Shown: positions 17,268 through 38,381, counted from the first letter of the stretch. The stretch: 64,000 nt of DNA from a virus (IMGVR_UViG_3300028392_000045:1-64000); one strand, 5' to 3'. Numbers and translations are program-made. The notes: generated by a model from the sequence alone, not told the origin.

Positions 17268-19166
17268 TCAAGGATAAGTACATCCAAAATATGCAGTGTC
17301 ACCTATTGTAACTTCTCCACAATTACCAACAACAACAATACGTGCTATATGGTTAAAATTACAAAGTATTGGATAATCTACTGTAGCTACCCCAGCCGAT
17401 AAAGAAGTAAATGAAATAGTTTCGTAGAAGTTTCCTGGTATTGCTGGAGTACCTGGAGAAGCTATTCTATATAGTTTAGCTCTTAGATTACTCAAGTTAA
17501 CATCTGCTGATACTGTAACTCCAATTCTAAAGGTATTTGTAGCTCCACCAGAAGGAAGTAAGAAACTACCTGTAATAGTAGATCCAGAATACTGTCTATG
17601 CTCTACAGTAACGTTTGTAGAAGTAATTCCTAAAGTGTAAGTAAAGGTATAAGTACCTGAGTTTTTACTAGTATAAGATACTGCTGTAGGTGAAGCTAAG
17701 GAAACTGTAGAAGGATTACCTCCTGCTTGTGTCCAAGTACCACCTCCTGAATAACCTATAATCAAAGAAGTTAAATCTATTGTACCTTGATTACATACAT
17801 AACCTGCTGTACCTGTTCCTGCTGATACGTTGGTAACACTGATTGTAACGTTAGCAGATGTTTTATTATTAAGACCTACACCTTGTACTACAATCGTATC
17901 AGATCCAGTAGCAGAAGCTATGTATTGTAGTTGTCCATTTACTATAGTCAAAACACCTTTAGTAGGTGCAGTAACTACATTATAGCTTACAATAGGCACA
18001 CTAAATCTACCTGCTAGGTTATCTGTTACTAATACATTAACTCCACCACTTAGACTGAAGTTAGAAGCTGTAGGAGTAGGATAGTCATAAGGATCAATAT
18101 AAATATCAGCAGCATCAGACCATACTCCAGAAGTATTAGCTACTCTTACTCTAATTCTATCAAAACCAACTGAAGTATTAGTATATCTAATAGTACCAGG
18201 AGCTACAAGAATAGCTGATCCAGTTGCAGTAGTTAAAGTACCACCGGATACACTCTGCCCTGTAGTAGGAATAAATGTAAGAGTAGATAAATCTGCATTT
18301 GGAGGTAGTACTAAAGGATAATCAGTAGTAGTACTTACACCTGCTATTTTCTTAGTAACATCTAAAACTGTAGGAACTCCAGGAACAGAACATAGATTTA
18401 CTTTTACTGCTACTTGAGAATTTTTAGTAAATACACCTAAAGTATTCTTTATTCTTAAAGTATAAGTAAAATTAGAGTTTACAAAAGGCTTACTAAACTG
18501 CATTGAACTAGGTGAAGTCTTAGTTTTTGTAATGCTATTATCATCTAGTATAATAAGACTATCAAGATCTAAAAAACCTACTCCAGTATTGACAAAATTG
18601 ACATTCCAAACTAAAGTATTATTCTGACAAGCAGCTATAACAGAATAGCTATTCTGAATGACCGGATAAGGTATAGGTAAAGTATAGGTAGATGATGCTG
18701 TACAACCATTGCTGTCAGTTACGTAAAGTAGTACTTGAGTATTAGCTACTGTAATATCTGCTTTAGGTATAAGTTGTATAGCTGCTGTATTTACTCCAGT
18801 AGCATCAAACAAACCTGAGTCATACAACCAGTACATAGTATATGGTGCAGTACCTCCTAAAATAGTTCCTGTTACAGCTAGAGTACCAGTAGGATTGGTA
18901 GTTACTGTAAGAGAATTACAAGGATCTGTAATACTCACTACTTGAGATAATGTACAGCCATTATTATCTACTCCTTTAGCAGTTATAGTAGAGCTATAAC
19001 AAGCTGTATCTGGAAAGTCAAATGTAGCTTTAATACTAAAAACTGGATTAGTAGATCTACCTGACGGTGTGCTAATATTAACACAAGGTGAAGAAGATGT
19101 AATAGTCCAGTCTACATATGATGCACCAGGAAAATTAAAGTTTATAGTCTTTTTGATAGTACTCAT
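17268..19166 (-). CDS. large beta-sandwich (Ig-like) tail or surface protein
   Basis: This 632-residue protein is Thr/Ser/Val rich, with repeated patterns typical of Ig-like or fibronectin-type strands (for example DITVANTQVLLYVTDSNGC and NVTISVTNVSAGTG), and repeated Cys-containing turns. There is no signal peptide. I start it at ATG 19166 because this makes the usual ATGA overlap with the gene before; the frame also offers an ATG at 19193. A role as an adhesive tail appendage is inferred from composition and from its two companions upstream. Confidence 0.6.
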   Translation of the reverse strand: MSTIKKTINFNFPGASYVDWTITSSSPCVNISTPSGRSTNPVFSIKATFDFPDTACYSSTITAKGVDNNGCTLSQVVSITDPCNSLTVTTNPTGTLAVTGTILGGTAPYTMYWLYDSGLFDATGVNTAAIQLIPKADITVANTQVLLYVTDSNGCTASSTYTLPIPYPVIQNSYSVIAACQNNTLVWNVNFVNTGVGFLDLDSLIILDDNSITKTKTSPSSMQFSKPFVNSNFTYTLRIKNTLGVFTKNSQVAVKVNLCSVPGVPTVLDVTKKIAGVSTTTDYPLVLPPNADLSTLTFIPTTGQSVSGGTLTTATGSAILVAPGTIRYTNTSVGFDRIRVRVANTSGVWSDAADIYIDPYDYPTPTASNFSLSGGVNVLVTDNLAGRFSVPIVSYNVVTAPTKGVLTIVNGQLQYIASATGSDTIVVQGVGLNNKTSANVTISVTNVSAGTGTAGYVCNQGTIDLTSLIIGYSGGGTWTQAGGNPSTVSLASPTAVSYTSKNSGTYTFTYTLGITSTNVTVEHRQYSGSTITGSFLLPSGGATNTFRIGVTVSADVNLSNLRAKLYRIASPGTPAIPGNFYETISFTSLSAGVATVDYPILCNFNHIARIVVVGNCGEVTIGDTAYFGCTYP

Positions 19167-19393
19167 GAAATAGTTATTGTAGGAGTAGTGCAAGTAAATG
19201 ATGTTACAGTAATAGCAGCAGTACAGTTATTAGTTACTGTAAAAGGTGTACAAGGATCTATCAAGTTAGCAGTGGGATAACCACAATCATTTGCATAGTA
19301 AGCTAAGAAGTAAGGATTGATTTTACAATTCTCACAAGGCATACCATATAAATGCTTGTTGACTACATTATGAATTACATCCGCAATTGTCAT
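19163..19393 (-). CDS. small Cys-rich structural companion protein
   Basis: This 76-residue protein contains MPCENCKI and further Cys residues near PCTPF and SFTCTT. It begins at ATG 19393, overlapping the end of the upstream gene by 26 bases, and ends in an ATGA overlap with the Ig-like protein. Cysteine spacing resembles that of its upstream neighbour (CANC, CGC), so the three may assemble together. Function is not recognised. Confidence 0.5.
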   Translation of the reverse strand: MTIADVIHNVVNKHLYGMPCENCKINPYFLAYYANDCGYPTANLIDPCTPFTVTNNCTAAITVTSFTCTTPTITIS

Positions 19394-19817: not shown

Positions 19818-20999
19818 TTAAATAAAGCATTTTATTCTAACTGGTGCTACCACAGCACTCAATATTGAGTCAAAATCCTTTAAGGCTTCATCCCCAAGTA
19901 CGAGTCTACAAATATTAAGAGCACCATTGCAATCAGCATTTATATACTGATTTTTAGAAGTTCTGAAAAGCCCTCTCTTAACTCTTTTACCAAGATACTT
20001 TTCATGCTTCATAATAGGCTCTAAATCTAAAGCACTACATTTTGATGTATATGCTTCTTGTGTCTCGATAAAAAATTTACCTTCCAACTGTGCTTTATAC
20101 CTTATTTTTTCTATAAGGGTAGCGTGTGGGATTTGAGTAAACTTTCTATTACTATCTTTTCCTATATTAATATTTTGTTTCCAATGTATATTTTTTCCTA
20201 TTATAATTTTTGAAATATTATTAACATTACAAAAGTTTATTATTTCTCTACTAGTTTTATGAATATAATCTTTTATTTTATTATATCTTTTATATGATAA
20301 TTTTTTAATTCTTTTACTTGAATAAATTCCTTTTAATAACTTGGATTGCAATAATGCTTTACGTTTATTATAATATTCATTAATAGATTTTAAAGGCTTT
20401 CCATTAATTATAAATGCTTTGCCGATATTTGAAACACAAGTAACTAAATTATTAAGACCTACATCTATTGATAACCAATTATCGTTTTCTATTAAAAGTT
20501 TTTCCTCTTTTGTATAAATAAATTCTACTACAAAGTGATTTGATTTTGGTATTACTCTACCATAATCAATTTTAGTTAAATTAGTTTTTATAGGTAGAAT
20601 ATTTAACATCTTTGGAAAATGCACATAGCCTTCTTTTATTTTTAATTGACTAGATGTAAATCTTAATTCAGATAACTTTTTTTTATATTTAGGCATTTTA
20701 GGAAAGAATAAAAAATTACTTGAATCTTTATAATAAGATTTTTTAGCTGCTTTCCAAGAACTAATATTTCTAAATAGTATTCTTACTATTTGTTGAGATG
20801 TATTTGAAGGTAAAGCTCTAAATGTAGGTTCATTAAATTTAGCATAAACACCTGTTAATTCATATTCACTAAACTTTTCAATATTGCCAATCATGGATTG
20901 TTTCCAATAGTAAAGAGATTGGTTATAAAGCTCTTTAGCCTTTATACACCATTCTTTCCATTCATTTGTTTTAACTATATGTTGCTCTGTTAATTGCAT
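19818..20999 (-). CDS. TnpB-like (IS200/IS605 OrfB) RuvC-type nuclease, zinc ribbon reduced
   Basis: This 393-residue protein has the TnpB fold signs: a basic N-terminal half, RuvC-I SIDVGLNN (Asp179), the segment IIIGKNIHWKQ (266-276) where classical TnpB has a conserved Glu, QIPHATLIEKIRYKA, EAYTSKCS (Glu315) and RuvC-III NADCNGALNI (Asp356). The usual paired CxxC zinc-ribbon cysteines are absent. TnpB proteins are RNA-guided nucleases that act at the donor site of IS200/IS605 elements. This variant belongs to the GKN-type group, in which the middle acidic residue may have moved, with Glu315 a candidate. No tnpA lies nearby. It sits alone between tail genes, so it is a mobile or homing-like insertion. 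Confidence 0.85.
   Translation of the reverse strand: MQLTEQHIVKTNEWKEWCIKAKELYNQSLYYWKQSMIGNIEKFSEYELTGVYAKFNEPTFRALPSNTSQQIVRILFRNISSWKAAKKSYYKDSSNFLFFPKMPKYKKKLSELRFTSSQLKIKEGYVHFPKMLNILPIKTNLTKIDYGRVIPKSNHFVVEFIYTKEEKLLIENDNWLSIDVGLNNLVTCVSNIGKAFIINGKPLKSINEYYNKRKALLQSKLLKGIYSSKRIKKLSYKRYNKIKDYIHKTSREIINFCNVNNISKIIIGKNIHWKQNINIGKDSNRKFTQIPHATLIEKIRYKAQLEGKFFIETQEAYTSKCSALDLEPIMKHEKYLGKRVKRGLFRTSKNQYINADCNGALNICRLVLGDEALKDFDSILSAVVAPVRIKCFI
19844..19858. other. hairpin at 3' end of tnpB-like gene
   Basis: The last codons of the TnpB-like gene contain a GTGCT-N5-AGCAC hairpin. IS200/IS605 elements carry subterminal hairpins at their ends and the guide RNA of TnpB overlaps the 3' end of the gene, so this is a candidate for the right end or guide-RNA scaffold. 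Only about 40 bases separate it from the next gene. Confidence 0.3.
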
Positions 21000-21010
21000 A
21001 ATATACTAAC

Positions 21011-21262
21011 TCATTTATTTTTTAAAATGTTGAAACTGTCATTCTTCATGTATTGAGAAGTGTGAACACCTAGTATACCAAGAAAGAAAGCAAGAATGTC
21101 AGTTACTACACTAATAATTTCTTGTACTTGATTATCTAAGTGTATAAAATTATGCAAATTACTTAAAATCATATACAAAGCATATAATCCACCTAATGCC
21201 ATTGCACCAGTAAAAGGATTTTTAAATTTTAAAGCGTCTATAATACTAACTAAGTTTTTCAT
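21011..21262 (-). CDS. holin-like small membrane protein
   Basis: This 83-residue protein has two hydrophobic segments (about residues 18-35 and 48-64) separated by a short polar part and ends with a charged tail (KNDSFNILKNK). This is the layout of small phage holins. I choose ATG 21262, which overlaps the TAG stop of the upstream gene by 17 bases; upstream extension lacks support. It is paired with a membrane-anchored coiled-coil protein, suggesting a lysis cassette. Confidence 0.55.
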   Translation of the reverse strand: MKNLVSIIDALKFKNPFTGAMALGGLYALYMILSNLHNFIHLDNQVQEIISVVTDILAFFLGILGVHTSQYMKNDSFNILKNK

Positions 21263-21566
21263 TTTTAAGCTGATTATTCTCAAGTTCCAATTGAGAGATT
21301 TTAGAAGAGTGATCTGCAACTAAAGATCTAAGTGAAGAGTTTTCTTTTTCTAGCTCATGTACTTTGTTCATAAGATTTAGAATTTGCTTTTGTAAATCTT
21401 GAACTTCTCTCATTAAAGAATCTTTGAAATCTTGTTCATCTTTTTGAATCTGTAAAGCATTTAGCTTTAAATCCAGTAACGCTTTTCGGTTGGCATATCT
21501 ACCTCCAAAGAACCAGCCTATAATAGTTGTAACTAAGGCTAGTAGGATATTGGTAATTACAGTCAT
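21246..21566 (-). CDS. membrane-anchored coiled-coil protein (spanin- or holin-partner-like)
   Basis: From ATG 21566 this 106-residue protein has one N-terminal transmembrane segment (ITNILLALVTTIIGWFFGG) followed by a long heptad-rich coiled coil with repeated Leu spacing (LQKQILNLMNKVHELEKE). The frame extends to GTG 21587, but ATG is preferred. A single anchor plus coiled coil resembles inner-membrane spanin subunits, and the next gene is holin-like. It uses TAG as stop, which argues against amber recoding. Lysis role is inferred. Confidence 0.5.
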   Translation of the reverse strand: MTVITNILLALVTTIIGWFFGGRYANRKALLDLKLNALQIQKDEQDFKDSLMREVQDLQKQILNLMNKVHELEKENSSLRSLVADHSSKISQLELENNQLKNEKLS

Positions 21567-21609
21567 CAGTAGCTCTTTATTTTGCACGGTATGTATTATT
21601 AGGCATTAG

Positions 21610-21672: not shown

Positions 21673-22263
21673 TCAATTAATCTTTTGCATAACATAGTAT
21701 AAACTCATGTCTCTAGGTGCTTTAGATGTACCACCAAACCAAGCAGAAATAGGAATAGTTTTTCTGTAGTTCATAGGATTACCTTGAGTACAAACTATTC
21801 TATCGTTTAGTGTAAAAACATATCTACCTTCTCTTAGTAAAAAACTAAAATTAAATAATTGATTTTGTATTACTTCAACTATAGCATCTTCATGTGGATG
21901 GTTATTAGATCCATTTAAGCTATAGTTTTCATAAATACAAATTTCAAATCTACCTTTAATTTTATGTGGTCTCCATGCTACTATAACGCTATTCTTAGTT
22001 TTAAAAGGGAAATCAAAAGCGTTATAAAAACCACATATCTTGTTGAAGTCATAATTATCCTCACCTAGATTATTATACCAACAAGAACTATCTAGTTTAA
22101 TACTTCCTTGCCAACTAGCAATATCTGAAATACCACCAGTAGGATTAGGTAAAAAATCACTATTGCCTTTCTTTACGTAATACCTTTTAAGCTCAGTAGT
22201 GCCGTTGGTTACTAAGGAACAAGATGTAAAAAGTAGTAGTAAGAAGAATAGTAGGTATTTCAT
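21673..22263 (-). CDS. putative phage-encoded lipoprotein
   Basis: The 196-residue protein begins with a lipoprotein signal: a Lys-containing start, a run of Leu/Phe and a lipobox LFTSC with Cys15 as the acylated residue. The mature part is beta-rich and aromatic with several Cys. Such a protein would be exported and anchored in the host envelope. It sits at the end of the signal-peptide fibre cluster. Superinfection exclusion or receptor masking is a plausible role for a phage lipoprotein, but no family is recognised. ATG 22263 places the stop of the fibre gene 4 bases upstream. Confidence 0.6.
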   Translation of the reverse strand: MKYLLFFLLLLFTSCSLVTNGTTELKRYYVKKGNSDFLPNPTGGISDIASWQGSIKLDSSCWYNNLGEDNYDFNKICGFYNAFDFPFKTKNSVIVAWRPHKIKGRFEICIYENYSLNGSNNHPHEDAIVEVIQNQLFNFSFLLREGRYVFTLNDRIVCTQGNPMNYRKTIPISAWFGGTSKAPRDMSLYYVMQKIN

Positions 22264-22266
22264 GAT

Positions 22267-24243
22267 TTACTTTTGAACTGAAACTTTAAACGTAGCACTC
22301 GCGGGGTCTACCGAGCTAACAGTGTCATTATTAAATCTAACTGTCACTGTGTCGGCAGCACTCACCCAAGCCATATATCTTACTCCGGTAACAGAGCGCA
22401 AAGCATTCACAACGCCCAGTGTTACAATATCACCATCTGCTGCGCCTGTTACGGTAATTGTAAGGTCGGATTGGCCTAGTGATGCCGTGCTTGGAAAGTC
22501 AAGCGTAGCCGATCCAGATAATCCATAAAAAACTTCTAAACGAGTTGCGGATGGTGTATAAAAAAGCTTACCAGAAGAATTAACTTCAACAGTATTTGCT
22601 TCGGGTGTCGTTAATAGGGCGGCACTTGTTGAGGTAAATTTCAACGGGGCTGTTCCTGCTGTTGCTGTGCCTGCGCCAATATGGACTTTAGCGGTAGCTG
22701 TTACACCATTATTGAACCCCCAGTTGCCAGTAAGCCCATTTATAAACCCACAAAAATTATTATAACGTCCTGCATAAATCCACAAATCACGGCTGGGAGT
22801 TGCTTTTATATCAAAAGCAAACCCATTTGCTGTATATAAATTAAATCCAGAAGAACCAGAACCGTTTGATGTAAGATAAATTTTTGCTTCTGGTTGTTCA
22901 GTTGGTGCAACAATTTCTAAAACTTGTGTTGGTGTGGTATTTAAACCTATAAGACCAGTTGAATCTATATATATATAATGGCTAGCATCGTTTTTAATTT
23001 CGAGACGACCATTTGAGCCACCTGTAGAACCACGAACACCGATATTAAAAGCCGTTTTATTGCTACCTACAATTGTCATTCCTGTCACACCTGCTGTATT
23101 CCTACCGTTAAATTGAATATTAGCTGAATCCAATAACAGTGCTGTTGGTGAAAAAATAAATGAATTTAAACTGCCAGAACTATTTCTAGGAAAAAAAGAA
23201 ACGTTTTGCCCATAAGCATTGAAATCAAATATTGTTTTACTGTTTCCTCCACCCCCTAATGCTGACCAACGTATTTGCCAATCATCTGCATAGGTTTCGT
23301 GCGTTGTTCTGCCCGTAGCAATGTTATATTTCATAAACATAGCCCGAAGTGATTTATTTCCGTTTCTTCCTGCAAAAGTATGATGCCACTCGTTCAAAGT
23401 GTCTAATTCTGGCGTCACATAATCAACTTCAAATTGCTGACCGTTTTGAGGGTATCTGCTATCAATCACATTCCCATTCATAGTATTAAACCCTATGTTA
23501 AAAAGCCTATCGATTAAACCTGTTCCGGCAACGGTTGAGTTGAAAGCTGATATAGTAGCAAAACCACCCGGTCTAAGTCCACGTCTATCGTAAGGAAAAA
23601 GTATTCGATATGCTTTTAATGTGTCTTGCATTCTAAAAGCCCCTTTCACGTATCCAGTATCAACACTCGTATTATAAACTAGCTTTGAACTACCTGCAAA
23701 AGTTGATCCATTATTGATTTGGACTTGATTTATTGATCCGCCCGGTGTTCCGCCACCGCCGCTACTCACCGTCCTCGGCGCATATGCCTCCTTAACGTTA
23801 TCCCAAACAAGCGCCTGCCCAGCACTAGCACCATTTTGAGCGATGTTATTTGGACTAATTTTACTCACTTCTCCTGAATCTACTTTAGCATAAATCAAAG
23901 TAGATCCATTTGATTGTAATACCTGCCCATTTGTAGGGGTAGTGGCAGAAACAGATATACCTTGGATAGAAGTAGCATTCCCTGAAGAACCATTAGCTAA
24001 TTCCCATTGTCCTGTACTTGAATTATATACAAAAGTTTGTCCATTAGCAGTACCAGGACGAAACTTAATAGGATCAAGTGTAAAGTTTTTAATGTATTTA
24101 CCATCTAAGTTAGACGAGCCTTGTCCATAGTCATTTACTCTACCTGTACCTGTATTAGAAGTAACTGGTCTTTTTGGTTCAAACTGACCAAATAGAGATA
24201 CAGTAGTAAAAAGTAAAGTAATAGCTAAAATAATATTTTTCAT
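22267..24243 (-). CDS. tail fibre-like protein with signal peptide
   Basis: This 658-residue protein starts with a clear Sec signal peptide (MKNIILAITLLFTTVSLFG, then QFEPK). The rest is fibre-like: Ser/Thr/Gly/Asn rich, with TPGGSINQVQINNGS and several short beta-repeat stretches. Codon use changes inside the gene: the first ~120 codons match the AT-rich neighbours, while the remainder (below about 23,850) uses many GC-rich codons, for example around 23,750-23,830. This suggests a native N-terminus joined to an acquired fibre body. It shares a SPNNIAQ module with the 1,168-residue fibre gene. It lies between a lipoprotein and a protease gene. Confidence 0.7.
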   Translation of the reverse strand: MKNIILAITLLFTTVSLFGQFEPKRPVTSNTGTGRVNDYGQGSSNLDGKYIKNFTLDPIKFRPGTANGQTFVYNSSTGQWELANGSSGNATSIQGISVSATTPTNGQVLQSNGSTLIYAKVDSGEVSKISPNNIAQNGASAGQALVWDNVKEAYAPRTVSSGGGGTPGGSINQVQINNGSTFAGSSKLVYNTSVDTGYVKGAFRMQDTLKAYRILFPYDRRGLRPGGFATISAFNSTVAGTGLIDRLFNIGFNTMNGNVIDSRYPQNGQQFEVDYVTPELDTLNEWHHTFAGRNGNKSLRAMFMKYNIATGRTTHETYADDWQIRWSALGGGGNSKTIFDFNAYGQNVSFFPRNSSGSLNSFIFSPTALLLDSANIQFNGRNTAGVTGMTIVGSNKTAFNIGVRGSTGGSNGRLEIKNDASHYIYIDSTGLIGLNTTPTQVLEIVAPTEQPEAKIYLTSNGSGSSGFNLYTANGFAFDIKATPSRDLWIYAGRYNNFCGFINGLTGNWGFNNGVTATAKVHIGAGTATAGTAPLKFTSTSAALLTTPEANTVEVNSSGKLFYTPSATRLEVFYGLSGSATLDFPSTASLGQSDLTITVTGAADGDIVTLGVVNALRSVTGVRYMAWVSAADTVTVRFNNDTVSSVDPASATFKVSVQK

Positions 24244-24253
24244 TTCTTTTTGT

Positions 24254-25009
24254 TTATTGCACTAAATTAATAACCCAAAAATCATCTGCTAAATCTGTAG
24301 TAGTCAGATAGTCATATGGCATTCTACAATATCCTCTATCTCCCCATTTTGTACCCCAAGAATTTTTTACTATAAAAGATTTACTAAAATCTTCATAGCC
24401 TACAATTTTCATAGCATGTCCTCCTAAAACTCTTTCTGACATACTAGGCATAGGTACAATTCCTGTAGCTGCTACACCAGGAGTTTCAAAACTTTCATAT
24501 ACAGAACAACCAAAAACTACTGGATAACCTTGAGCTAAACAAGATTTAATATCTGTAATATTAGTATTGTCTACTCTATGATAAGTTTGTATTTTATGTT
24601 TAGCAGCTTCAGTATATGCTTTCTTAGTTGGTTTCCTTTTAAACTTAATAATGTCATATGGTACAGTTGTTTCACTACATTCACCATAAGTTACTAAAGC
24701 TTTAATTCCATCTCGTAATTGAGCACCAGAGTCATAGCCTACTGTACCTTCAATAATGCGTTCATTATAATACAAAAATAATCGAGAACCAGATGTGCTG
24801 TATACTCCTTGTTTCTTACGATCAAAATCAAAAGCAGATGTAATAGCATTTGCAGTACAACTACCTAAATTAAGCTGATCAAATACAGGAACATCTTGTG
24901 CTCTTAAATCAACCATAGGAGGTAATGTAATAGCATCTAATTGTCTATTAAATTTGTAGTCTCTATGATCTGGTAGATCAGGAACATAACCATACTTAAA
25001 TTGATACAT
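24254..25009 (-). CDS. papain-like (C1 family) cysteine protease
   Basis: This 251-residue protein has all hallmarks of a C1 peptidase: Gln45 of the oxyanion hole, LGSCTANA with catalytic Cys51, GGHA with His198, and KNSWGTKWGDRGY with Asn216. There is no signal peptide and only a short ~35-residue N-terminal extension, so it looks like a mature-length enzyme without a large propeptide. It is translated between two genes whose products have Sec signals, with 2-11 base gaps. It may cleave fibre or decoration proteins, or act as a tail-borne enzyme; the substrate is unknown. Family assignment is strong. Confidence 0.88.
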   Translation of the reverse strand: MYQFKYGYVPDLPDHRDYKFNRQLDAITLPPMVDLRAQDVPVFDQLNLGSCTANAITSAFDFDRKKQGVYSTSGSRLFLYYNERIIEGTVGYDSGAQLRDGIKALVTYGECSETTVPYDIIKFKRKPTKKAYTEAAKHKIQTYHRVDNTNITDIKSCLAQGYPVVFGCSVYESFETPGVAATGIVPMPSMSERVLGGHAMKIVGYEDFSKSFIVKNSWGTKWGDRGYCRMPYDYLTTTDLADDFWVINLVQ

Positions 25010-25011
25010 TA

Positions 25012-25662
25012 CTATTGAATTTTAACTAAGATAAATTCTACACCTTTATTAGTGTAGTTGATAGCAAACGTATTATCAAATAAATCAAATACTCTTTCTT
25101 CTGGTAATATTCCTTCTAGTTTAAAAGAAGTTTCACACAATACTTTGATTTTACCTTGTACTGGTTTAACATCTTTAGCTAAAGGTTTTCCATTAGCATC
25201 TCCTACTTGTTGTACATTACCTAGAGAATCAATACCAATAACCATACTAGTAGCTCCTCGTAATTGCCATACGCCAGAAAACTTCTTAGCAAAAATCTGA
25301 GTTAGAAAATCTTCATAATCTCTTTTGTACAAAGTCTTAATAAATTTCTTATAGGCTATTGTACCTGATTGATTTTTATTTCTAATCAAAGCACTTCTTA
25401 CTAATTGAGAAGAAGCTAAGTATTCAGAATTTACTAACTCTAAAGATTTTTGTAATAGTGTCAAAGAATCAATCTGAGCGAATGTTTCTGAAGTTAGATC
25501 TGAATCTCCTTTTACATAAGAAGTAAGCTTATAAGTAATCTTATTATTCTTCTTAATTTTAGTAAAAGAAATAGAATCAGCCTTTGCTAATTCAGGTAAT
25601 TGATTTTGTGCAGATACCGTCAATGCACACATAAACATAAAAAAGAAAATACCGTACTTCAT
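25012..25662 (-). CDS. secreted protein, paralogue of the next gene
   Basis: This 216-residue protein has a Sec signal peptide (MKYGIFFFMFMCALTVSA, then QNQ). The mature part is alpha/beta mixed with a short FSGVWQLRGA segment near residue 128. It matches its neighbour at 25679-26386 over LPELAKADS versus LPDLNTVDS, over a central helix ending KRDY versus KTNY, and over FSGVWQ versus FTGRWQ, so the two are tandem paralogues. Function is unknown; context suggests an exported fibre companion or chaperone. Confidence 0.65.
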   Translation of the reverse strand: MKYGIFFFMFMCALTVSAQNQLPELAKADSISFTKIKKNNKITYKLTSYVKGDSDLTSETFAQIDSLTLLQKSLELVNSEYLASSQLVRSALIRNKNQSGTIAYKKFIKTLYKRDYEDFLTQIFAKKFSGVWQLRGATSMVIGIDSLGNVQQVGDANGKPLAKDVKPVQGKIKVLCETSFKLEGILPEERVFDLFDNTFAINYTNKGVEFILVKIQ

Positions 25663-25678
25663 TGTGAATTATTTTTAG

Positions 25679-26386
25679 TTAAAGTTTTTGCAAAGTAATA
25701 GAAAAATCGTATGAAATCCAAATACCTAATGGAGTTTGAAAAAACCTAACAACTTTAGGTGTAGCTTTTACTGTAGTAGTTGGATTCTTTACTATAGTAT
25801 AATTAGGAAAATAATTAGTAGTCTCAATACAGTTATTAGATAATACTCTAAAATTACCATTAAAGTTAGGAGTACCTGTTTCTGAGTTCATGTTTTTTGC
25901 ATTACCACTGATATTAGAAGTAACTACAATTACATGATCTACCCATCTAGCATTCAAAGAAACAGCTTGCCATCTACCAGTAAAAGCAGATAGATTTGCA
26001 TTAAAAGTAGAGTCGGGATAATTAGTCTTAGTCATTCTACTAAACATCTTACTAAAAACTACATTACCTTTTTCTGAAGTACCATACAAAGCTTCATACT
26101 TGGCACGTACTGCACTTGCTGTAGCTTCATAACCACTAGCTAGTTTTGATTGTAAAGCAGCTACTACAGCTACAGAATCATACAAAGGAGATACAGCATT
26201 AATGGTATCACCTGTTGCTTTATAGGCTATATAGACAAATTGTACTTTACGTTTTGCTATTCCATTTTCAATTACATTACGTTTTACTAAACGTACAGAG
26301 TCAACTGTATTAAGATCAGGTAGATCAACAGATTGAGCAAAAATGGAAACTGAAAAAAGTAGAAATAAAAAAGTTAAATATTTCAT
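25679..26386 (-). CDS. secreted protein, paralogue of the previous gene
   Basis: This 235-residue protein starts with a Sec signal peptide (MKYLTFLFLLFSVSIFA, then QSVD). It is related to the 216-residue protein beside it by shared segments at the mature N-terminus, the central helix and the F-x-G-x-W motif. It follows the long fibre gene by 11 bases. A role as partner or chaperone of the exported fibre proteins is possible but not shown. No known domain is recognised. Confidence 0.65.
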   Translation of the reverse strand: MKYLTFLFLLFSVSIFAQSVDLPDLNTVDSVRLVKRNVIENGIAKRKVQFVYIAYKATGDTINAVSPLYDSVAVVAALQSKLASGYEATASAVRAKYEALYGTSEKGNVVFSKMFSRMTKTNYPDSTFNANLSAFTGRWQAVSLNARWVDHVIVVTSNISGNAKNMNSETGTPNFNGNFRVLSNNCIETTNYFPNYTIVKNPTTTVKATPKVVRFFQTPLGIWISYDFSITLQKL

Positions 26387-26397
26387 GGTATTGATTT

Positions 26398-29300
26398 TTA
26401 TTGTTGATTAGTTACTACCCATCGGTAAATTGATCCCGGTAAAAGCATACAAGTCAAAGTCACATTACCCCAAGCTAATGATGTTGTTGCATCAGTTATA
26501 TCGTAAGTTGAAAAGGTTGTCGGTGCACTTGCGAGTCCAGTAGAATACCAGATACCCGAAGTACAAGAAACGGTTACTTTAAAAGTTAAGGCAGCATCAG
26601 CGGCATAGATTACAACTGATTGCCCAACAAATGTTGCCGATGGAGTAGGTAAAGTTACAGTAGTATTAGCACTCGCACCTGATGTCTGATCGGCATAAAC
26701 ATTTACAGTCTGAAATAGTGTTAAATCTGAACTTGCATCATAATTGGCATTCTGTGTCTGTACTGCTTTTGAAAATCCTCTACCTGAAATTATATTTCCA
26801 TTTGCATCACCTACAACAACAGACCCTTGAGTAAGTCCACCATTTGGCATAGTAGGAATTTCTCTCCATGCTGCAAATGTATTGTCACGGATATTTAGCC
26901 TAGTTGTTGTACTATTTGCAATTACCAATAAGTTTGCTGGTGATGAAATAGCGTCGCGTTGGGTTGTGGTCATTACAGGAGGAAGAAATCCTCTAGTCGT
27001 AGAGTTTAGTGAAAGAACTGCGCTTGCGACTACTGATGCATCAACCGTATTATTATCAGAAATAATTGAACCTTTATTTACACCAAATATTATTTGTCGT
27101 CGGTTATTACCCGGAAGAATAGATACATCTCTAGTATTCCCTGAACAAATCTGTAGATCTCCACTAGTATTTACGATTATATCCGTATTTGAACCATTTG
27201 ATATATTTAATTTACTTGATGCTATCGTTGAGTTTATTGTTAAACCGCCAGATGGCGACATTACTAATGTGGATGATGATTGCAAATTCCCATTCGCATC
27301 ACCAAAAGCGATCTGTGTATTTGGAATTGATGTCTGAGAAGATCCTATCAAATATTTCCAAGAATCAGCATTGTTATAACCCAAGCGTCCAATTGTCGAA
27401 TTATACACAAACAACCCAGCAGGCGTGGTAATCGTAGCAACCGTTATCACCAACCCCGAACCGCTACCACCACCAATAGTAGCATTCGAAGCACTCAAAA
27501 CGTCCCCTACTTGATAACCACTTCCCGCTGTTGTGATAGTCACCACTGTAACAGCACCACCAGAGACAGTGATTGAAGCAACTGCGCCTGTACCTGTACC
27601 ACCTGTGAGGGCAATACTGGTGTAGCTTCCGTTGGTGTAACCTGTACCTCCGTTGGTTAGGGTTATGGTTGCTATGCCTGAATAGTTTGCGGCGATGTTT
27701 GCGGTTGTTTGGATGGGGAAGGGCATTGAGCCTTTTGTGGTGGAAGTAACAGAAAATTGAGCTAAATTATAACTTGTCGTAACACCTGTAGGATTTACAG
27801 CAAGTGTATTTGTTGAAAATATATAACCGTTTGTACCACCTGAAGCTGTATTTTTATCAATAAGTAAATTATTATTTAAGCCGCCTAAAATTTGAATAGT
27901 TGTTCCACTGTTTGCTCTCGTAATATTTAAATTACTAGATGTAGAATTTATAGCATTAACGTTCAATCCATTTCCTACTGTAACAGAACTTAAAAAATTC
28001 GCAGCAGCATTAACTTCTAAGCCAAACGAATTTGTAATAGACGTGTTTGTCCCAGCTGATGGTGCAGATCCAATCCTAACAGTAGAAAAACTCGTGTATG
28101 TTGTTGCGTTAGTTGAATTAACAACCCCGCCATCAAAACTTGACATTGAACCAGAAGCAATCGTACTTGCTCCCGATGTGTTCGTCACTGTCCCCGTCGC
28201 CACTCTAAATACATAACCATTTCCAGATAAATCACCTGTACTTGAATAAGAAGGTGTAATATGAACTTGAGAAGTAGGACTTGCTTGATTAAACCCAGTG
28301 AATCCAGTAAAGTTATTAACGCCACTCCAAGTTTGAGTACTTTGAAGTAAAGGAATAGTGCCACTTGCATTTTGCAGGGTGTACAATCTGTCTGCTGTGT
28401 TTGATTCTGAAAACCCATAAACAAATCCAGAAGCATCTTTTACACTTAAAGCATTACTTGCATTCGCATACAAAGCTAAACCACTCGAAACCGTTGTAGG
28501 TGCAGCCGATTGGTTTAGCATACCAAAAAAACCAGCTCCACCAGTGCCGGTTAAAGTACCACCAACTGCTGAAAATCCGCTTGATGCCGCAGGACGTGGC
28601 GCATATTTTGAACCCGTCCAAGTTAGTACATCACCAGTATTAGCTAAAGTCTGCGCTATGTTATTGGGGCTAAGTGCAGCGGCTTTTGTTGAGTCAACAG
28701 CGGCACTTGCTATCTTTATCTTTGTTACAGCGCTGTTGGCTATAGTTGTTGCGATAGCACCTGTTCCAGAAGCCGTTACATCACCCGTTAAGCTGGTAAT
28801 TAAATTAGAGGTTAAAGCGATAGTTCCACTAGCATCTGGTAAAGTATAAGCCCTATCCGCTGTATTAGAATGCGGAAAGCTATAAGTCAATCCCGCACCA
28901 TTTTTTACTGAAAAAACGTTGGAAGAGTTTGCAAATAAAGCCATCGAACTTGGAAAAGTAGTTGGATTTGCTGATTGACTTATCATTCCAAAGAATCCTG
29001 TGCCTCCTGTTCCAATTATAAATCCACCTGTTTTAGGATAATATGTTGCCCCAAGATTGAGATTTGTAATTGACGTCCTAACATAAGCTTGAGATGCAAC
29101 AAGGGCAGAGTCAACTCTAACTGTTTTAGTTCCCTTGATTGTTCCCCATCCGAATGTGCTGGGATAGATTGCCAACATTGTGGTCGTATCTGTTTTAAGT
29201 ATGTACGATGTTAGGTTTGATGTCAATGCAAACGTTCCAGTTGCATCTGGTAAAGTATATGTGCGATCTGCCGTGTTCGCTTCTGACAAGATATACGTAC

Positions 29301-29904
29301 GACCAGATGCGTTTTTGACACCTAGGGCACTTGCGGCATTTGCGAAAATACGCAAGCCACTAGATGGTGCACTCGGATTGGCTGATTGAGAAGGAAGACC
29401 GTAAAAACCAGCACCACCTGTGCCAGTCAAAGTTCCACCAAGCAAAGGAAAGTATGTAGTACCTAAGTTTAAATTTGTAATTTGCGTCCTAACATAAGCC
29501 CGTGAGGCCGCCAAAACTGAATCGATGCGAATTGTTTTGCTGCTTTTTAGCAATCCCCAACCAGGTGTAGATGCGTAATTAGCTAAAAAAGCTGTAGTAT
29601 CTGTCTTTAGTAAATAAGGAGTTAAATCAGTACTAAATACTACCCAAGTATTAGGTAAAGCAGATAATCTATATAATAGGTTATTAGAATTGACAAATAC
29701 AAACATACCTACTTTTCTTCTTAGAGTAGGTATATTATTTCTTTCTGTAGTATCTGCAACAGACCTAAAACCTCCTCTAGCTAAAGAGTCCATGTGAGTA
29801 GGATAAGTACCTCCTCCAATAGTTTGAATATATCCTGCTACGTTAACTTGAGCAGAAAGTGATAAAGTAAAAGCTAAAAATATAATAGATAGTAATAGTC
29901 TCAT
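26398..29904 (-). CDS. long repeat-containing tail fibre-like protein with signal peptide
   Basis: This 1,168-residue protein begins with a Sec signal peptide (MRLLLSIIFLAFTLSLSA, then QVNV). It holds repeat units of ~138 residues at about 93-231 and 232-369 (each starting L-T-x-Y-x-L-K-T-D-T-T and ending ADRxYTLPDAxGT) and a partial third unit near 455-525. A Gly-rich stretch near 730-830 (GGTGYTNGSY, GSGYQVGDVLS) is typical of phage fibre connectors. The first ~100 codons use AT-rich native codons, and the rest is richer in GC, indicating domain replacement. Antisense open frames here are shadows of the Gly-rich codons. Confidence 0.75.
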   Translation of the reverse strand: MRLLLSIIFLAFTLSLSAQVNVAGYIQTIGGGTYPTHMDSLARGGFRSVADTTERNNIPTLRRKVGMFVFVNSNNLLYRLSALPNTWVVFSTDLTPYLLKTDTTAFLANYASTPGWGLLKSSKTIRIDSVLAASRAYVRTQITNLNLGTTYFPLLGGTLTGTGGAGFYGLPSQSANPSAPSSGLRIFANAASALGVKNASGRTYILSEANTADRTYTLPDATGTFALTSNLTSYILKTDTTTMLAIYPSTFGWGTIKGTKTVRVDSALVASQAYVRTSITNLNLGATYYPKTGGFIIGTGGTGFFGMISQSANPTTFPSSMALFANSSNVFSVKNGAGLTYSFPHSNTADRAYTLPDASGTIALTSNLITSLTGDVTASGTGAIATTIANSAVTKIKIASAAVDSTKAAALSPNNIAQTLANTGDVLTWTGSKYAPRPAASSGFSAVGGTLTGTGGAGFFGMLNQSAAPTTVSSGLALYANASNALSVKDASGFVYGFSESNTADRLYTLQNASGTIPLLQSTQTWSGVNNFTGFTGFNQASPTSQVHITPSYSSTGDLSGNGYVFRVATGTVTNTSGASTIASGSMSSFDGGVVNSTNATTYTSFSTVRIGSAPSAGTNTSITNSFGLEVNAAANFLSSVTVGNGLNVNAINSTSSNLNITRANSGTTIQILGGLNNNLLIDKNTASGGTNGYIFSTNTLAVNPTGVTTSYNLAQFSVTSTTKGSMPFPIQTTANIAANYSGIATITLTNGGTGYTNGSYTSIALTGGTGTGAVASITVSGGAVTVVTITTAGSGYQVGDVLSASNATIGGGSGSGLVITVATITTPAGLFVYNSTIGRLGYNNADSWKYLIGSSQTSIPNTQIAFGDANGNLQSSSTLVMSPSGGLTINSTIASSKLNISNGSNTDIIVNTSGDLQICSGNTRDVSILPGNNRRQIIFGVNKGSIISDNNTVDASVVASAVLSLNSTTRGFLPPVMTTTQRDAISSPANLLVIANSTTTRLNIRDNTFAAWREIPTMPNGGLTQGSVVVGDANGNIISGRGFSKAVQTQNANYDASSDLTLFQTVNVYADQTSGASANTTVTLPTPSATFVGQSVVIYAADAALTFKVTVSCTSGIWYSTGLASAPTTFSTYDITDATTSLAWGNVTLTCMLLPGSIYRWVVTNQQ

Positions 29905-29910
29905 TTTCTT

Positions 29911-31119
29911 TTAATTTACACTAGTAAAAATAAATGCAGTATTAGAAAAAGTATTATTACTAGTATATACATAGTAATTTTGAACATATCCAGAAGCATT
30001 AGTTACTGATACTGTAGATCTAGTAAATGCTCCTATAGATTCTAAACCTGATACTATAATTGAAGTAAGAACTCCAAAAGAAGTAGGATAAGCATAATAC
30101 ACATTAGAAGGTGTTCCTACTCCAATAGATACAGAAAACCCTCCTTTAGCTGCTACTGTAGAAAATTCAGATGAACCTCCTGTAGTAGATATAATCTGAG
30201 CAGATGTAGGAGTACCTATATTATATCCCCAGTATTTTTTTGCTCTCCATAATAAACTAGTAGAAGCTCCAGATCCTTTTCCATCTGCTGTAGTACATAA
30301 AGAACTAAAAGTAGCATCTACGTTTCTTGTAGTAGTTGTGTTTTGAGTACCTGTTGCTGTAGCTCCTGCTGCTGGGTTAGTAGATGTATTTACTCCATTG
30401 ACTGTAAAACTAGCAACTGCTGTAGCATTAGTAGGTCTAAAAGCAGACCAGTTTAATACTAACGAAACTGCACCAGAACCAGACATTAATTCAGTTGTAA
30501 TAGTCTGTGCTGTAGTACCACCATAAGTAGTTGTTAATCCTAAAGTAATAGGAGAAGAAGGAAAAAATACTTGATCTAAGAAATCTTGTACTGTTGTAGT
30601 AGTACCCATATTTTGACCATTGAGCAATGATCCAGTTATAGTTCTATTACCATTATAATTTGCTGAAGTTGAAGATGCAGTAGATAAAGAATCTAATCGT
30701 ATAATGGCATCATTTAAAATAGCTAAATTAGTAGCATTAGGAGCACCATCAGCAGCTATACCTAATCGTCTTACTGAAGTATACCTATATATTACAGAAT
30801 TAACAGGAGGTATAATAGTAAGTGTTGATGTAGAATCTATAACACGACAACTAATTAAATTAGCACTTACAGATAATATAGAATCAATATGGAGTTTGTA
30901 ATACTTAGTGCCAGATAGTAAAAAAATCTTATAACCTACAGCTACCTGAGAAGCACTGTATTGTGCGTTGGTATTATTGAAAAAACCAGTAAAGAGAAAT
31001 TTATTAGTTACTCCTACTCTACTAGAAGAAGCTATATTAAAAGAACCATGAAATTTTCTTGATACTGTTTGACCTTGTAAGAAAAAAGGAAACAGTAATA
31101 TAATTAACAATAGTCTCAT
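29911..31119 (-). CDS. fibre-like protein with signal peptide
   Basis: This 402-residue protein starts with a Sec signal peptide (MRLLLIILLFPFFLQG, then QTVSR). The rest is Ser/Thr rich and beta-structured, with a central segment about strings such as TTTTVQDFLDQVFFPSSP found in Bacteroidetes phage fibres, and no enzyme motif. Unlike its two larger fibre neighbours it keeps the AT-rich native codon style throughout. It is the first gene of the signal-peptide cluster on this transcript and precedes the 1,168-residue fibre by 6 bases. Confidence 0.65.
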   Translation of the reverse strand: MRLLLIILLFPFFLQGQTVSRKFHGSFNIASSSRVGVTNKFLFTGFFNNTNAQYSASQVAVGYKIFLLSGTKYYKLHIDSILSVSANLISCRVIDSTSTLTIIPPVNSVIYRYTSVRRLGIAADGAPNATNLAILNDAIIRLDSLSTASSTSANYNGNRTITGSLLNGQNMGTTTTVQDFLDQVFFPSSPITLGLTTTYGGTTAQTITTELMSGSGAVSLVLNWSAFRPTNATAVASFTVNGVNTSTNPAAGATATGTQNTTTTRNVDATFSSLCTTADGKGSGASTSLLWRAKKYWGYNIGTPTSAQIISTTGGSSEFSTVAAKGGFSVSIGVGTPSNVYYAYPTSFGVLTSIIVSGLESIGAFTRSTVSVTNASGYVQNYYVYTSNNTFSNTAFIFTSVN

Positions 31120-31129
31120 TGTTTTCTAT

Positions 31130-31684
31130 TTAGTAACACCCTATGATAGTCCAATACAGGAATGCATCCAAACCTGTTATTTTTAAAGTAATGTCTCCTG
31201 ATCCTATAGCAACTATCTGCATTTGTGGACTAGGAGATTGATTATAAATAAAAGGAAAACTTGTAGAAGCACCACCTACTGCTTGAGCTGTAGTGTTTAA
31301 CACTTGTAAAAGTGGAGGTTGAAATGTCTGTACATTGGTATTGTAGATCATGGTATTAATGACAACTAGGTATTCTCCTGCTATTAAGTCAGAAGCCCCT
31401 CCATTTATTGTAAACTTAAGTAGTTCACTTTTTTCAGGTACTAGTATACTGCAAGAGCCTGTTTGCTTTACGGCTATAATATCTCCACCACCTACTACAT
31501 ATACATCATTAGCTGCTGCATATCGTTCAATAATAGTAGATTTTATAGAACCTTGATCTAAGCCTTCATTGATAATATCAAACAAGCCTAGAGTATAGTC
31601 AAAATTGTCATTAGTTCCACCATAGCTCTGTCCTTGTACAGGCTTATTTCGAACTCCACTTTTAATCAAGCGATAATCTTTCAT
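31130..31684 (-). CDS. putative head-fibre or decoration protein
   Basis: This 184-residue protein has a short N-terminal arm with YGGTNDNFDYTLG, similar to GGSNSNYDYSVS in the next gene upstream, followed by a compact beta-rich domain. The shared arm suggests that both proteins dock on the same site, for example on the capsid or tail. No signal peptide is present. It lies between that gene and the signal-peptide fibres. Decoration or head-fibre role is inferred. Confidence 0.5.
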   Translation of the reverse strand: MKDYRLIKSGVRNKPVQGQSYGGTNDNFDYTLGLFDIINEGLDQGSIKSTIIERYAAANDVYVVGGGDIIAVKQTGSCSILVPEKSELLKFTINGGASDLIAGEYLVVINTMIYNTNVQTFQPPLLQVLNTTAQAVGGASTSFPFIYNQSPSPQMQIVAIGSGDITLKITGLDAFLYWTIIGCY

Positions 31685-35536: not shown

Positions 35537-36709
35537 TTATTCTAAAAATACTTCTTCAGGAATTGTAGAATCTTCAGTATCAAAATTCATATCGTCAGAT
35601 TCTATAAGTTCCTTAAAGTTATCTCTCTTTCTTTCTGAGAAGTAATTACAGTCAGAATAAAGAAACTCAAGAATTTTTTTAACACTACCATTTGAGTATC
35701 TTAAATCTCCTATTTCATTATCTCTGTCTTTATGACGGATGTAAATAGAAGTTTCAGTTAAACCTAAATGGTGTATCAAAACTTGTTGTACTTCAAGTAA
35801 AAAAGGTTTGTTACCAGTAAAACTTATATTGGGTCTACCTCCTGTATACCAGACAGAACCATCACCATCATAATATCCTCTGATAAAGTGTCTAATCAAA
35901 TTAGGATCAATATCAGGAATATGTTCTAGGATATGTGTTTTGTTTTGTACACAACCCCACTTAGCTAATGCATCACACAAAATAGGACTGCATATAGTCA
36001 TAGTATAGAAATCCTGATGATTCTCATTCTCTCTAGTTCTAATGCCTATAGTATGTGTAGCACCAATAGCTTCTTTAAATTTATAAAGAAGTGGGCTATC
36101 TCCTTCAGCAAATCCTAACTTTATGTAAGTTTTTTGCTGGCAGTTATAACCATCTGCATAGAAGAGTCCAAGAAAATAAGCCTTGTCTTGGGTATCAATA
36201 TTATCAAAATAATGATAATCGCAAGTGTAAGTATTATAATCTGCCTGTTCTCTTTTCATATCTTCAGGTAGATATTTCAATACAGTAGGTTTACCAATAT
36301 CAAGTTGTTTAGCTACTTTAGCTGCTGATAACCCTTGCTCATAGAGATCGTAGATTTGAAATCTAATTTGAGTAGTAATTTCAGTTTTTACTCGAACCCA
36401 TACCTTATGTTTACGCTGCATTTTCTCTACATAAGAATTACTTACTTTAAGTCTTTTAGCAATGTCAACTATACTAAGTCCTTCCTTTGTAAGTTCCACT
36501 ACTTGTAATGCAACTTCTTCAGGAATTACTCTAGGTTTAGGTCTAGTGAACTCAACTCCTTTTTCTTTTAACCAAGTTTTAATAACTGGTCTTGAGATAC
36601 CTACAATCTCACTAATCGTTCTTAATGAGGTTTTTTCTTGATGAAGACAAAGAATCTGATCAATCAGACTCAATTTGACTTTTTCGGAAATAGCATTGTA
36701 ATGTGCCAT
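35537..36709 (-). CDS. free-standing LAGLIDADG homing endonuclease with N-terminal HTH modules
   Basis: The 390-residue protein has about three helix-turn-helix units in the first 160 residues (such as TISEIVGISRPVIKTWL, DIAKRLKVSNSYVEKM, VAKQLDIGKPTVLKYL) followed by a two-motif LAGLIDADG core: YFLGLFYADG and FIRGYYDGDG. Such enzymes cut intron- or intein-less alleles or neighbouring genes and spread by repair. Here it stands alone right downstream of the major capsid gene with its own promoter (36726-36757). No matching intron ends were identified in the capsid gene. Confidence 0.88.
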   Translation of the reverse strand: MAHYNAISEKVKLSLIDQILCLHQEKTSLRTISEIVGISRPVIKTWLKEKGVEFTRPKPRVIPEEVALQVVELTKEGLSIVDIAKRLKVSNSYVEKMQRKHKVWVRVKTEITTQIRFQIYDLYEQGLSAAKVAKQLDIGKPTVLKYLPEDMKREQADYNTYTCDYHYFDNIDTQDKAYFLGLFYADGYNCQQKTYIKLGFAEGDSPLLYKFKEAIGATHTIGIRTRENENHQDFYTMTICSPILCDALAKWGCVQNKTHILEHIPDIDPNLIRHFIRGYYDGDGSVWYTGGRPNISFTGNKPFLLEVQQVLIHHLGLTETSIYIRHKDRDNEIGDLRYSNGSVKKILEFLYSDCNYFSERKRDNFKELIESDDMNFDTEDSTIPEEVFLE

Positions 36710-36782: not shown

Positions 36783-38381
36783 TTATTCCCAGACTATTTT
36801 TCCACATGAAGAAATGTCCCATGCCCCCAAACTACCCGACAATTCACGCTTAATTGACAAAGTTTTGCCATCACGGTACACGTTAGAACCATCACGTACA
36901 ACACCATTTTTGAAGTCAATTGCGTTAGCTACAGAGTAATAGTAATCTGCCATGTCTTCTACAGCCATGAAGATGTTTTCACCTGATGCATTTTCGTCAG
37001 CGTTTTCAGACTTACCAAATTCCATAATGTCAATGTTGAATGACTCTTTTGGAAGGTAAGAACCTGGAGCTTTTTCTTTGTACAATTGATCATCATCCTT
37101 AGAAGGATCATACATGATTTGTACATCAATGCCGTTAGGGAACTTAATACGAGTGAATTGGAAACCAAATTCTTTTTCGTATTGGTGTACTCCAGTTGGT
37201 TCTGGATTAGAACGAAGTGCAAAACCTGGCTCCAATGTTTGGAATACTGATGCGTTCTGTGCAATCAAGTTGGACAAATAAGTAATAGCACCTGTACCAC
37301 CACAAAGAATAGGCTTACGATTCATGAAACCACGACGACGGAATACAATCTGATGCAAGAAATCATAAAGGTCAGCAAGAGTAAAGTTACCATTGTGTAC
37401 CATCAATTGACCATCACGAACTAGCTGTCTCCAACCTGGAGCAGTTTTGATTGCACGCTTAGAATCCATGTCGTTGTTAATCTGCAAACGACCAAATTCA
37501 CAAGCCATTTCACGGTCTCTCTCAGTACGCTCCAACAAACGTTGTTCAGCTTTAGTGATAAAGAAGCCTTTCTCAATCTTTTCGTTAGTACCAGATTTAG
37601 TCAAAGAAGTCTGATATACATAACCACGACCAAATGCATCATGATACTGCTTACCTCCATTACCATCTTGGTAAGTAGATTTGTTAGCACCACCTGTACG
37701 AGCAGCAGCCAATTCTTGCTTAACGAATTTGTCTGTAAAAGTTACTTCATTACCATACTGACCTACAATAGAGCGCAATTTAGACATTGAGCTGTACTGA
37801 TCAGTACCGTATTTGTCGTTTTCTTCGTTAGCTACACGAGTAGACACCCGAACAAAAATACGACCTACTTCCAACAAGCTAGAAGGAATCCAAGTATTAG
37901 GATTGCTGTCTTGTAGTTCACAAGTATACTTCCAAGAGTGACCAGCACCAAGAGGTTGAGCTACATCAAGGATGTTAATCAGTGGAGCATCATCAGATTC
38001 AGTCTTGATCACACATGGTGTTTTCAACCAGTTGCGGTCAAGTGCAATTTCAAATGTTGCATTGTTTTTACCAACTTGAGATCCACCAGTTACCAACAAT
38101 TCGGTAGAACGGAAATCAATATCAGCATCACCTACTACTGACCATTGGTAATCATTAGTACCAGCAGGTAGTTTGTGAAAGTTACCTTGAGCCATAGTCA
38201 AATAAGTCCAACGCTTATTTGTAAGACCAAGAGAACTTGTAGAGGAGAAAAGACGTGAAGTCATTACTCCAAAATCAAAAGGTTTGTCGTCACGAAACAA
38301 AGCAGCATGTGAGGCACTGTCAAAAAAGTTACCACCGAAGCCTTTGTATTCACTGACGCGAAGTTGCGCTCTGCGTTCCAT
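36783..38381 (-). CDS. major capsid protein (candidate)
   Basis: This 532-residue protein has the strongest codon bias in the window together with the 457-residue protein (CGT/CGC arginine, few rare codons), as expected for the most abundant virion protein. It follows an acidic scaffold-like gene and portal and terminase genes, the standard place for the HK97-fold capsid gene. It is a mixed alpha/beta protein with no catalytic motif and no signal. Length fits crAss-like capsid proteins. It starts at ATG 38381. Identification is by position and codon use. Confidence 0.75.
   Translation of the reverse strand: MERRAQLRVSEYKGFGGNFFDSASHAALFRDDKPFDFGVMTSRLFSSTSSLGLTNKRWTYLTMAQGNFHKLPAGTNDYQWSVVGDADIDFRSTELLVTGGSQVGKNNATFEIALDRNWLKTPCVIKTESDDAPLINILDVAQPLGAGHSWKYTCELQDSNPNTWIPSSLLEVGRIFVRVSTRVANEENDKYGTDQYSSMSKLRSIVGQYGNEVTFTDKFVKQELAAARTGGANKSTYQDGNGGKQYHDAFGRGYVYQTSLTKSGTNEKIEKGFFITKAEQRLLERTERDREMACEFGRLQINNDMDSKRAIKTAPGWRQLVRDGQLMVHNGNFTLADLYDFLHQIVFRRRGFMNRKPILCGGTGAITYLSNLIAQNASVFQTLEPGFALRSNPEPTGVHQYEKEFGFQFTRIKFPNGIDVQIMYDPSKDDDQLYKEKAPGSYLPKESFNIDIMEFGKSENADENASGENIFMAVEDMADYYYSVANAIDFKNGVVRDGSNVYRDGKTLSIKRELSGSLGAWDISSCGKIVWE

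Follow-up and report, generated by a model that had tools for sequence, protein, structure and literature searches.

Sec signal peptides followed by glutamine on fibre-like proteins of a crAss-like phage suggest a possible passage of fibres out of the cytoplasm before they are added to the virion

Why would the fibre genes of a tailed phage begin with export signals? Tailed-phage virions are thought to assemble wholly in the cytoplasm. The question is raised by positions 21673-31119 of a viral DNA stretch of 64,000 nucleotides (IMGVR_UViG_3300028392_000045:1-64000, hereafter the window), which belongs to a virus record of 97,264 bases. There, a cassette of minus-strand genes encodes fibre-like proteins with predicted Sec signal peptides next to a predicted lipoprotein. 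Our analysis suggests that this crAss-like phage, together with several cultured phages, carries host-style signals on its fibres, and that these fibres may be exported from the cytoplasm before they are attached to the particle. If this is true, the phage leaves it to its host to export its receptor-binding proteins, to cleave them and to cap them ahead of their addition to the particle.

An earlier note on this DNA had described five genes starting with a Sec signal whose predicted cut is followed by glutamine (Gln), and a sixth starting with a lipobox. All six N-termini were confirmed, with cut sites SLFG-Q (gene starting at 24243), TVSA-Q (25662), SIFA-Q (26386), SLSA-Q (29904) and LQG-Q (31119), and a lipobox-like FTS-C (22263). 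Signals were sought in open reading frames (ORFs) of at least 60 amino acids (aa) using a home-made set of rules for the n, h and c regions, i.e. neither SignalP nor a trained predictor. A signal peptide followed by Gln (SP-Q) was found in 5 of the 154 ORFs of the whole record and nowhere else in it, and all five genes fall within seven adjacent ones. The same pattern occurred in 18 of 16,600 random internal ORF segments (about 0.1 %) and in 414 of 20,000 shuffled N-termini of the five proteins, so that composition alone is insufficient to explain the five together. Chance and wrong start codons were ruled out by these statistics and, for the Cellulophaga phage homologues discussed below, by selection on the signal codons.

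The five proteins also conform, in the rule-based scan, to the Q-rule of Bacteroidetes, with n, h and c regions and a small residue at -1. Gln stands at +1 in all five at the best-scoring site, and in three of five when the site is picked blind to +1; in a wider set, the blind choice, which overlooked some sites through its own exclusion rule, placed Gln at +1 in 11 of 17 proteins versus a background of about 4 %. Across Bacteroidetes species, Gln occupies +1 in on average about 71 % of predicted signal peptidase I substrates (PMC5837995), and in Q-rule substrates it is cyclised to pyroglutamate (PMC5837995, PMC10653852). Gln at the predicted +1 position of the window proteins fits the known hosts of Crassvirales. 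Judged from their sequences, the signals are real, obey the Q-rule, recur in a relative of the phage (L003, see below) and make export likely.

The earlier note had called these fibre genes, a description that held for three of the five SP-Q genes and failed for the two small ones. The largest product (26398-29904, 1168 aa; signal peptide at 29851-29904, MRLLLSIIFLAFTLSLSA before Q) matches in one part phrog_438, a phage baseplate wedge family, and contains in another the RGFLPP-MTTTQ module, which is common in phage fibre-like proteins and present in 29 viral contigs. The 658-aa fibre-like protein at 22267-24243 (signal peptide at 24187-24243, MKNIILAITLLFTTVSLFG before Q) has a C-terminal domain of about 85 aa that is also found at the C-terminus of Escherichia phage tailspikes and, with E 9.5e-26 versus 22267-24243, of the L003 protein that is the first there to carry a signal. 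The 402-aa fibre-like protein at 29911-31119 (signal peptide at 31072-31119, MRLLLIILLFPFFLQG before Q) is connected to fibres only via its L003 homologue, which bears this same C-terminal domain; its own N-terminal domain, about 140 aa long, is conserved in L003 (39 % identity over 160 aa). The two small proteins, at 25012-25662 (216 aa; signal peptide at 25609-25662, MKYGIFFFMFMCALTVSA before Q) and 25679-26386 (235 aa; signal peptide at 26336-26386, MKYLTFLFLLFSVSIFA before Q), are mutual paralogues (E 7.5e-6). Searches of Pfam, PHROG and NCBIfam revealed in them neither a fibre signature nor a known family above cut-off, and no phage homologue of 25679-26386 was found. Structure predictions were of low confidence for 25012-25662 (predicted local distance difference test, pLDDT, 55) and for the lipoprotein (21673-22263; pLDDT 43, fold unreliable). 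No solved-structure relative was found for 26398-29904, 22267-24243 or gp93 of Cellulophaga phage phi10:1, and none of weight for 29911-31119. Elsewhere, the C-terminal domain of 22267-24243 occurs in a 164-aa protein of a spring-water podovirus (L064, MW202554, 2761-3255) with a signal-like N-terminus lacking Gln, and a 184-aa SP-Q ORF lies near the fibre module in two viral contigs (L026, 2137-2691; L027, 2136-2690).

The phage itself is crAss-like (Crassvirales), on the evidence of homologues in head-and-packaging and tail-ring families. The head protein, portal and terminase matched phrog_11589, phrog_6547 and phrog_6681/19299, respectively, and 13557-14621 matched the tail-ring family PF24228 (CrAss_Ring_1). 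The major head protein (36783-38381, minus strand; phrog_11589, E 8e-25), which has no signal peptide, anchors the block to Crassvirales; tblastn with it retrieved crAss-like phages, including Cellulophaga phage phi14:2, and it is 68-69 % identical to its counterparts in L002 and L003. Scans of viral contigs with the fibres and their neighbours gave no close relatives beyond these two, and a scan of genome contigs with 26398-29904 gave none. Along the minus strand, the head gene is followed downstream by several signal-less genes and then by the six signal-bearing ones. In the viral contig L003, which has 68 % identity to the window in the head protein, counterparts of the window genes follow the head gene in the same order and lead to two adjacent SP-Q genes (LFG-Q and LSA-Q), the former being the homologue of 29911-31119 at the same gene position. 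The pattern is thus common to the window phage and a diverged relative. The structural-block protein encoded at 31130-31684 (minus strand), without a signal peptide, likewise seems to have a counterpart in L003 (10897-11610, same gene position), recognised from gene order and inspection rather than from a scored alignment.

Can a protein bearing such a signal be part of a virion? Eleven SP-Q proteins of Cellulophaga phages phi10:1, phi19:1, phi18:3 and phiSM are annotated as virion proteins from tandem mass spectrometry (MS/MS) proteomics. Five adjacent distal genes of phi10:1, gp91-95, carry signals (that of gp95 was recognised by eye and in a second scan), and gp91-94 are annotated as structural from experimental MS/MS; SP-Q and an MS/MS virion annotation are also combined in gp101-103 of phi19:1, gp85-87 of phi18:3 and gp8 of phiSM. 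A virion fibre and a signal are therefore not mutually exclusive. Within the tabulated parts of the phi10:1 and phi19:1 genomes, signals are confined to distal genes and absent from the MS-annotated proteins of capsid, portal and tail; the restriction of signals to the distal part of the structural cassette is observed in two phages. Short SP-Q genes outside the structural block (phi10:1, 23531-23845; phi19:1, 22972-23331) have no MS note, which constitutes a weak within-sample control.

The signals of these cultured phages are maintained. Among gp93-like signals of seven phages, seven codons vary synonymously and no amino acid changes, i.e. the signal in this Cellulophaga family is under purifying selection, and Gln is invariably encoded at +1 of gp94-like genes, by CAA or by CAG. 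Related bodies also carry unlike signals: phi46:3 gp81 and phi10:1 gp93 share 661 of 696 aligned body residues and differ in their signals, each followed by Gln, and the common body of phi10:1 gp92, phi19:3 gp87 and phi19:1 gp101 is preceded by three different signals, all followed by Gln. It thus appears, from these comparisons, that the function of the signal rather than its sequence is conserved. Two general explanations of the distribution were ruled out. The host alone does not determine it, phi13:2 having signals and phi13:1 a fibre region without them, both on Cellulophaga baltica #13. Neither is it a general property of Bacteroidetes phages, as the fibre-region stretches read of crAss001, phi14:2, phi13:1, phi38:1, phi4:1, FCL-2 and P12002S are without SP-Q.

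Where would the exported proteins go? The earlier note had proposed that they might be surface-displayed on the infected or carrier cell, a reading that our results do not support in view of the Cellulophaga virion annotation and of the lack of surface-targeting features. A type IX C-terminal sorting domain was found neither in the window proteins (Pfam, NCBIfam) nor in ten Cellulophaga phage proteins (Pfam). Bacteroidetes surface lipoproteins carry a charged export motif of the K-(D/E)2 or S-D-D type after the +1 Cys (PMC5080379); in the predicted lipoprotein of the cassette (21673-22263, minus strand, 196 aa; signal at 22222-22263), the residues after the lipobox Cys are SLVTNG, which fit neither type. 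The tested proteins thus show the hallmarks of neither type IX cargo nor Bacteroidetes surface lipoproteins, and the periplasm is left as the simplest predicted destination. Nothing that we found points to the gut or Bacteroides setting that the earlier note had evoked.

For T4 and P22, it has long been established that completed particles can acquire their fibres or tailspikes in vitro. By analogy with the Cellulophaga phages, the fibres of the window phage would likewise be present in its virions, and we infer that it behaves as those phages do. The periplasmic prediction, combined with the virion annotation in other phages, leads to an order of events in which export comes first and attachment occurs at or after lysis. 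The fibre-like proteins, made with Sec signals, would probably cross the inner membrane, where cleavage by signal peptidase I would expose Gln, which would probably be cyclised to pyroglutamate. In the absence of a type IX sorting domain they should remain and fold in the periplasm, and fibreless tails would be joined by them at or after lysis, when the compartments mix. The two small paralogues, which also bear signals, may serve as accessory subunits of the fibres or as helpers in the periplasm. Export, cleavage, periplasmic residence, the pyroglutamate cap and late attachment are all steps that we infer. Of the readings considered, the best supported is that the cassette's fibre-like proteins belong to the virion as fibres and take the host export route, and we give the mechanism in full about an even chance of being correct. 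A broader proposal is put forward more tentatively, at slightly under an even chance: some Bacteroidetes tailed phages may build their virions in two compartments, with heads and tails in the cytoplasm and receptor-binding and depolymerase fibres in the periplasm (through Sec, with a pyroglutamate cap) that join at lysis, the signals marking a late assembly step that arose in, or spread across, several families.

Several observations weigh against exported virion fibres. Two of the five SP-Q proteins of the window (25012-25662 and 25679-26386) are not fibre-like, and signals are lacking from those fibre-region genes that were read in crAss001 and phi14:2, two members of the same order. Cellulophaga phage phi4:1 gp47 carries part of a fibre body of the other Cellulophaga phages and has no signal, yet it is MS-annotated as a virion protein; export would thus be optional, not required, for such a fibre to reach the virion. 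The MS-annotated gp104 of phi19:1 has a signal-like N-terminus without Gln. The MS/MS notes, moreover, concern other phages and give no N-termini, so that cleavage is unstated, and co-purified exported proteins could yield the same result. Finally, the signals were called with a simple rule set.

The alternative that survives best, although we consider it unlikely, is that the signals are uncleaved or only partly used, most fibres staying in the cytoplasm for normal assembly while the hydrophobic N-terminus helps in anchoring fibre trimers in the tail or in tethering assembling tails to the inner membrane. Cytoplasmic assembly is standard among tailed phages, and signal-less homologues exist. 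Fibre N-termini can indeed dock, since the first 26 residues of the crAss001 fibre gp22 lie in a docking hub (PMC10172136), but this N-terminus is not signal-like, whereas those of the window have the full Sec layout, i.e. a charged start, a hydrophobic core, a small residue at -1 and Gln at +1. Moreover, the different signals on near-identical bodies retain the pattern at the cleavage site in every case, which would not be expected if a docking peptide of one fixed sequence were at work.

Quite unlikely, in our view, is a reading close to that of the earlier note, in which the proteins are exported but are not part of the virion. On this reading, the phage would fill the infected cell's envelope or its surroundings with fibre-like adhesins or depolymerases, whose role would be to prevent superinfection, to loosen the matrix or to bind debris. 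The signals do look functional, and a lipoprotein adjoins the fibre genes. In T5, the lipoprotein Llp, encoded beside the receptor-binding gene, can block the receptor, and the position of 21673-22263 beside the fibre genes fits an arrangement of this type; no phage homologue of this lipoprotein was found. Our survey of the RGFLPP-MTTTQ module also agrees with such a role, as signal-like N-termini accompany it at four of four bacterial loci and on no viral protein with an intact N-terminus. However, comparable Cellulophaga phage proteins are annotated as virion proteins, the type IX domain and the surface-export motif are missing, and the genes occupy the position of tail fibre genes. That the signals are roleless leftovers of genes captured together with their signals from secreted host proteins, as the occurrence of the module of 26398-29904 on bacterial proteins with signal-like N-termini might suggest, is very improbable given that the Cellulophaga signals are under purifying selection, are swapped for others that keep Gln and occur in several phage families.

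Further features were noted in the cassette and elsewhere in the window. Inside the cassette, 24254-25009 (minus strand) encodes a C1 (papain-like) peptidase without a signal peptide (Pfam PF00112, E 9e-17; phrog_16701), with relatives in viral contigs L006-L008, the L007 copy lying near a 181-aa SP-Q protein. A possible lysis gene (21246-21587, minus strand) encodes a membrane segment and a coiled coil with weak matches to holin- and spanin-like families; just downstream of the lysis-like genes is an IS605-type TnpB gene (19818-20999; OrfB_IS605, Cas12f1-like_TNB). A 641-aa protein (17268-19193) with a weak Y_Y_Y-domain match is possibly another adhesin, in which no signal peptide was found. 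The terminase (41879-45208, 1109 aa) contains an intein-like insert at about 43574-44599 (LAGLIDADG_3, Intein_splicing), that of L002 having 766 aa. After the head gene, 35537-36709 resembles a helix-turn-helix and LAGLIDADG homing-endonuclease gene, with none at the equivalent place in L002 and L003.

Export of fibres would bear on the order of virion assembly and on the expression of functional fibres of Bacteroidetes phages. It also matters for annotation, since such genes can be mistaken for those of secreted proteins of the host. With Cellulophaga phages in culture, the question can already be put to the test. In the open-licence literature searched, we found no account of exported fibres in virions and no explanation of export signals on them, while lyase proteins of phages Nekkels and Ingeline have been remarked as carrying signal peptides (PMC8776804).

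Among known systems, T9SS (type IX) cargo and Bacteroidetes surface lipoproteins share the Q-rule signal type or the lipobox with the window proteins, in which neither the sorting domain nor the surface-export motif was found. The tailspike of Escherichia phage HSE2 is 38 % identical to the C-terminal domain of 22267-24243, but this tailspike and the Aeromonas 4_4512 protein have, unlike 22267-24243, no signal peptide. Phages crAss001 and phi14:2 share head, portal, terminase and tail-ring homologues with the window, and the fibre-region genes read in them are without SP-Q. Phages of Porphyromonas gingivalis (proposed Nixviridae) also encode proteins with Q-rule signal peptides, as their authors remarked, but the function of these genes is unknown and changes of the host outer membrane, not virion fibres, were proposed (PMC10367356). 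The Cellulophaga phages belong to Assiduviridae, Pachyviridae and an unclassified group, infect marine hosts and have no detected fibre sequence homology to the window, but in the cassettes of phi10:1, phi19:1, phi18:3 and phiSM, as in the window, neighbouring genes of the structural region encode fibres or depolymerases that start with a Sec signal and have Gln at +1.

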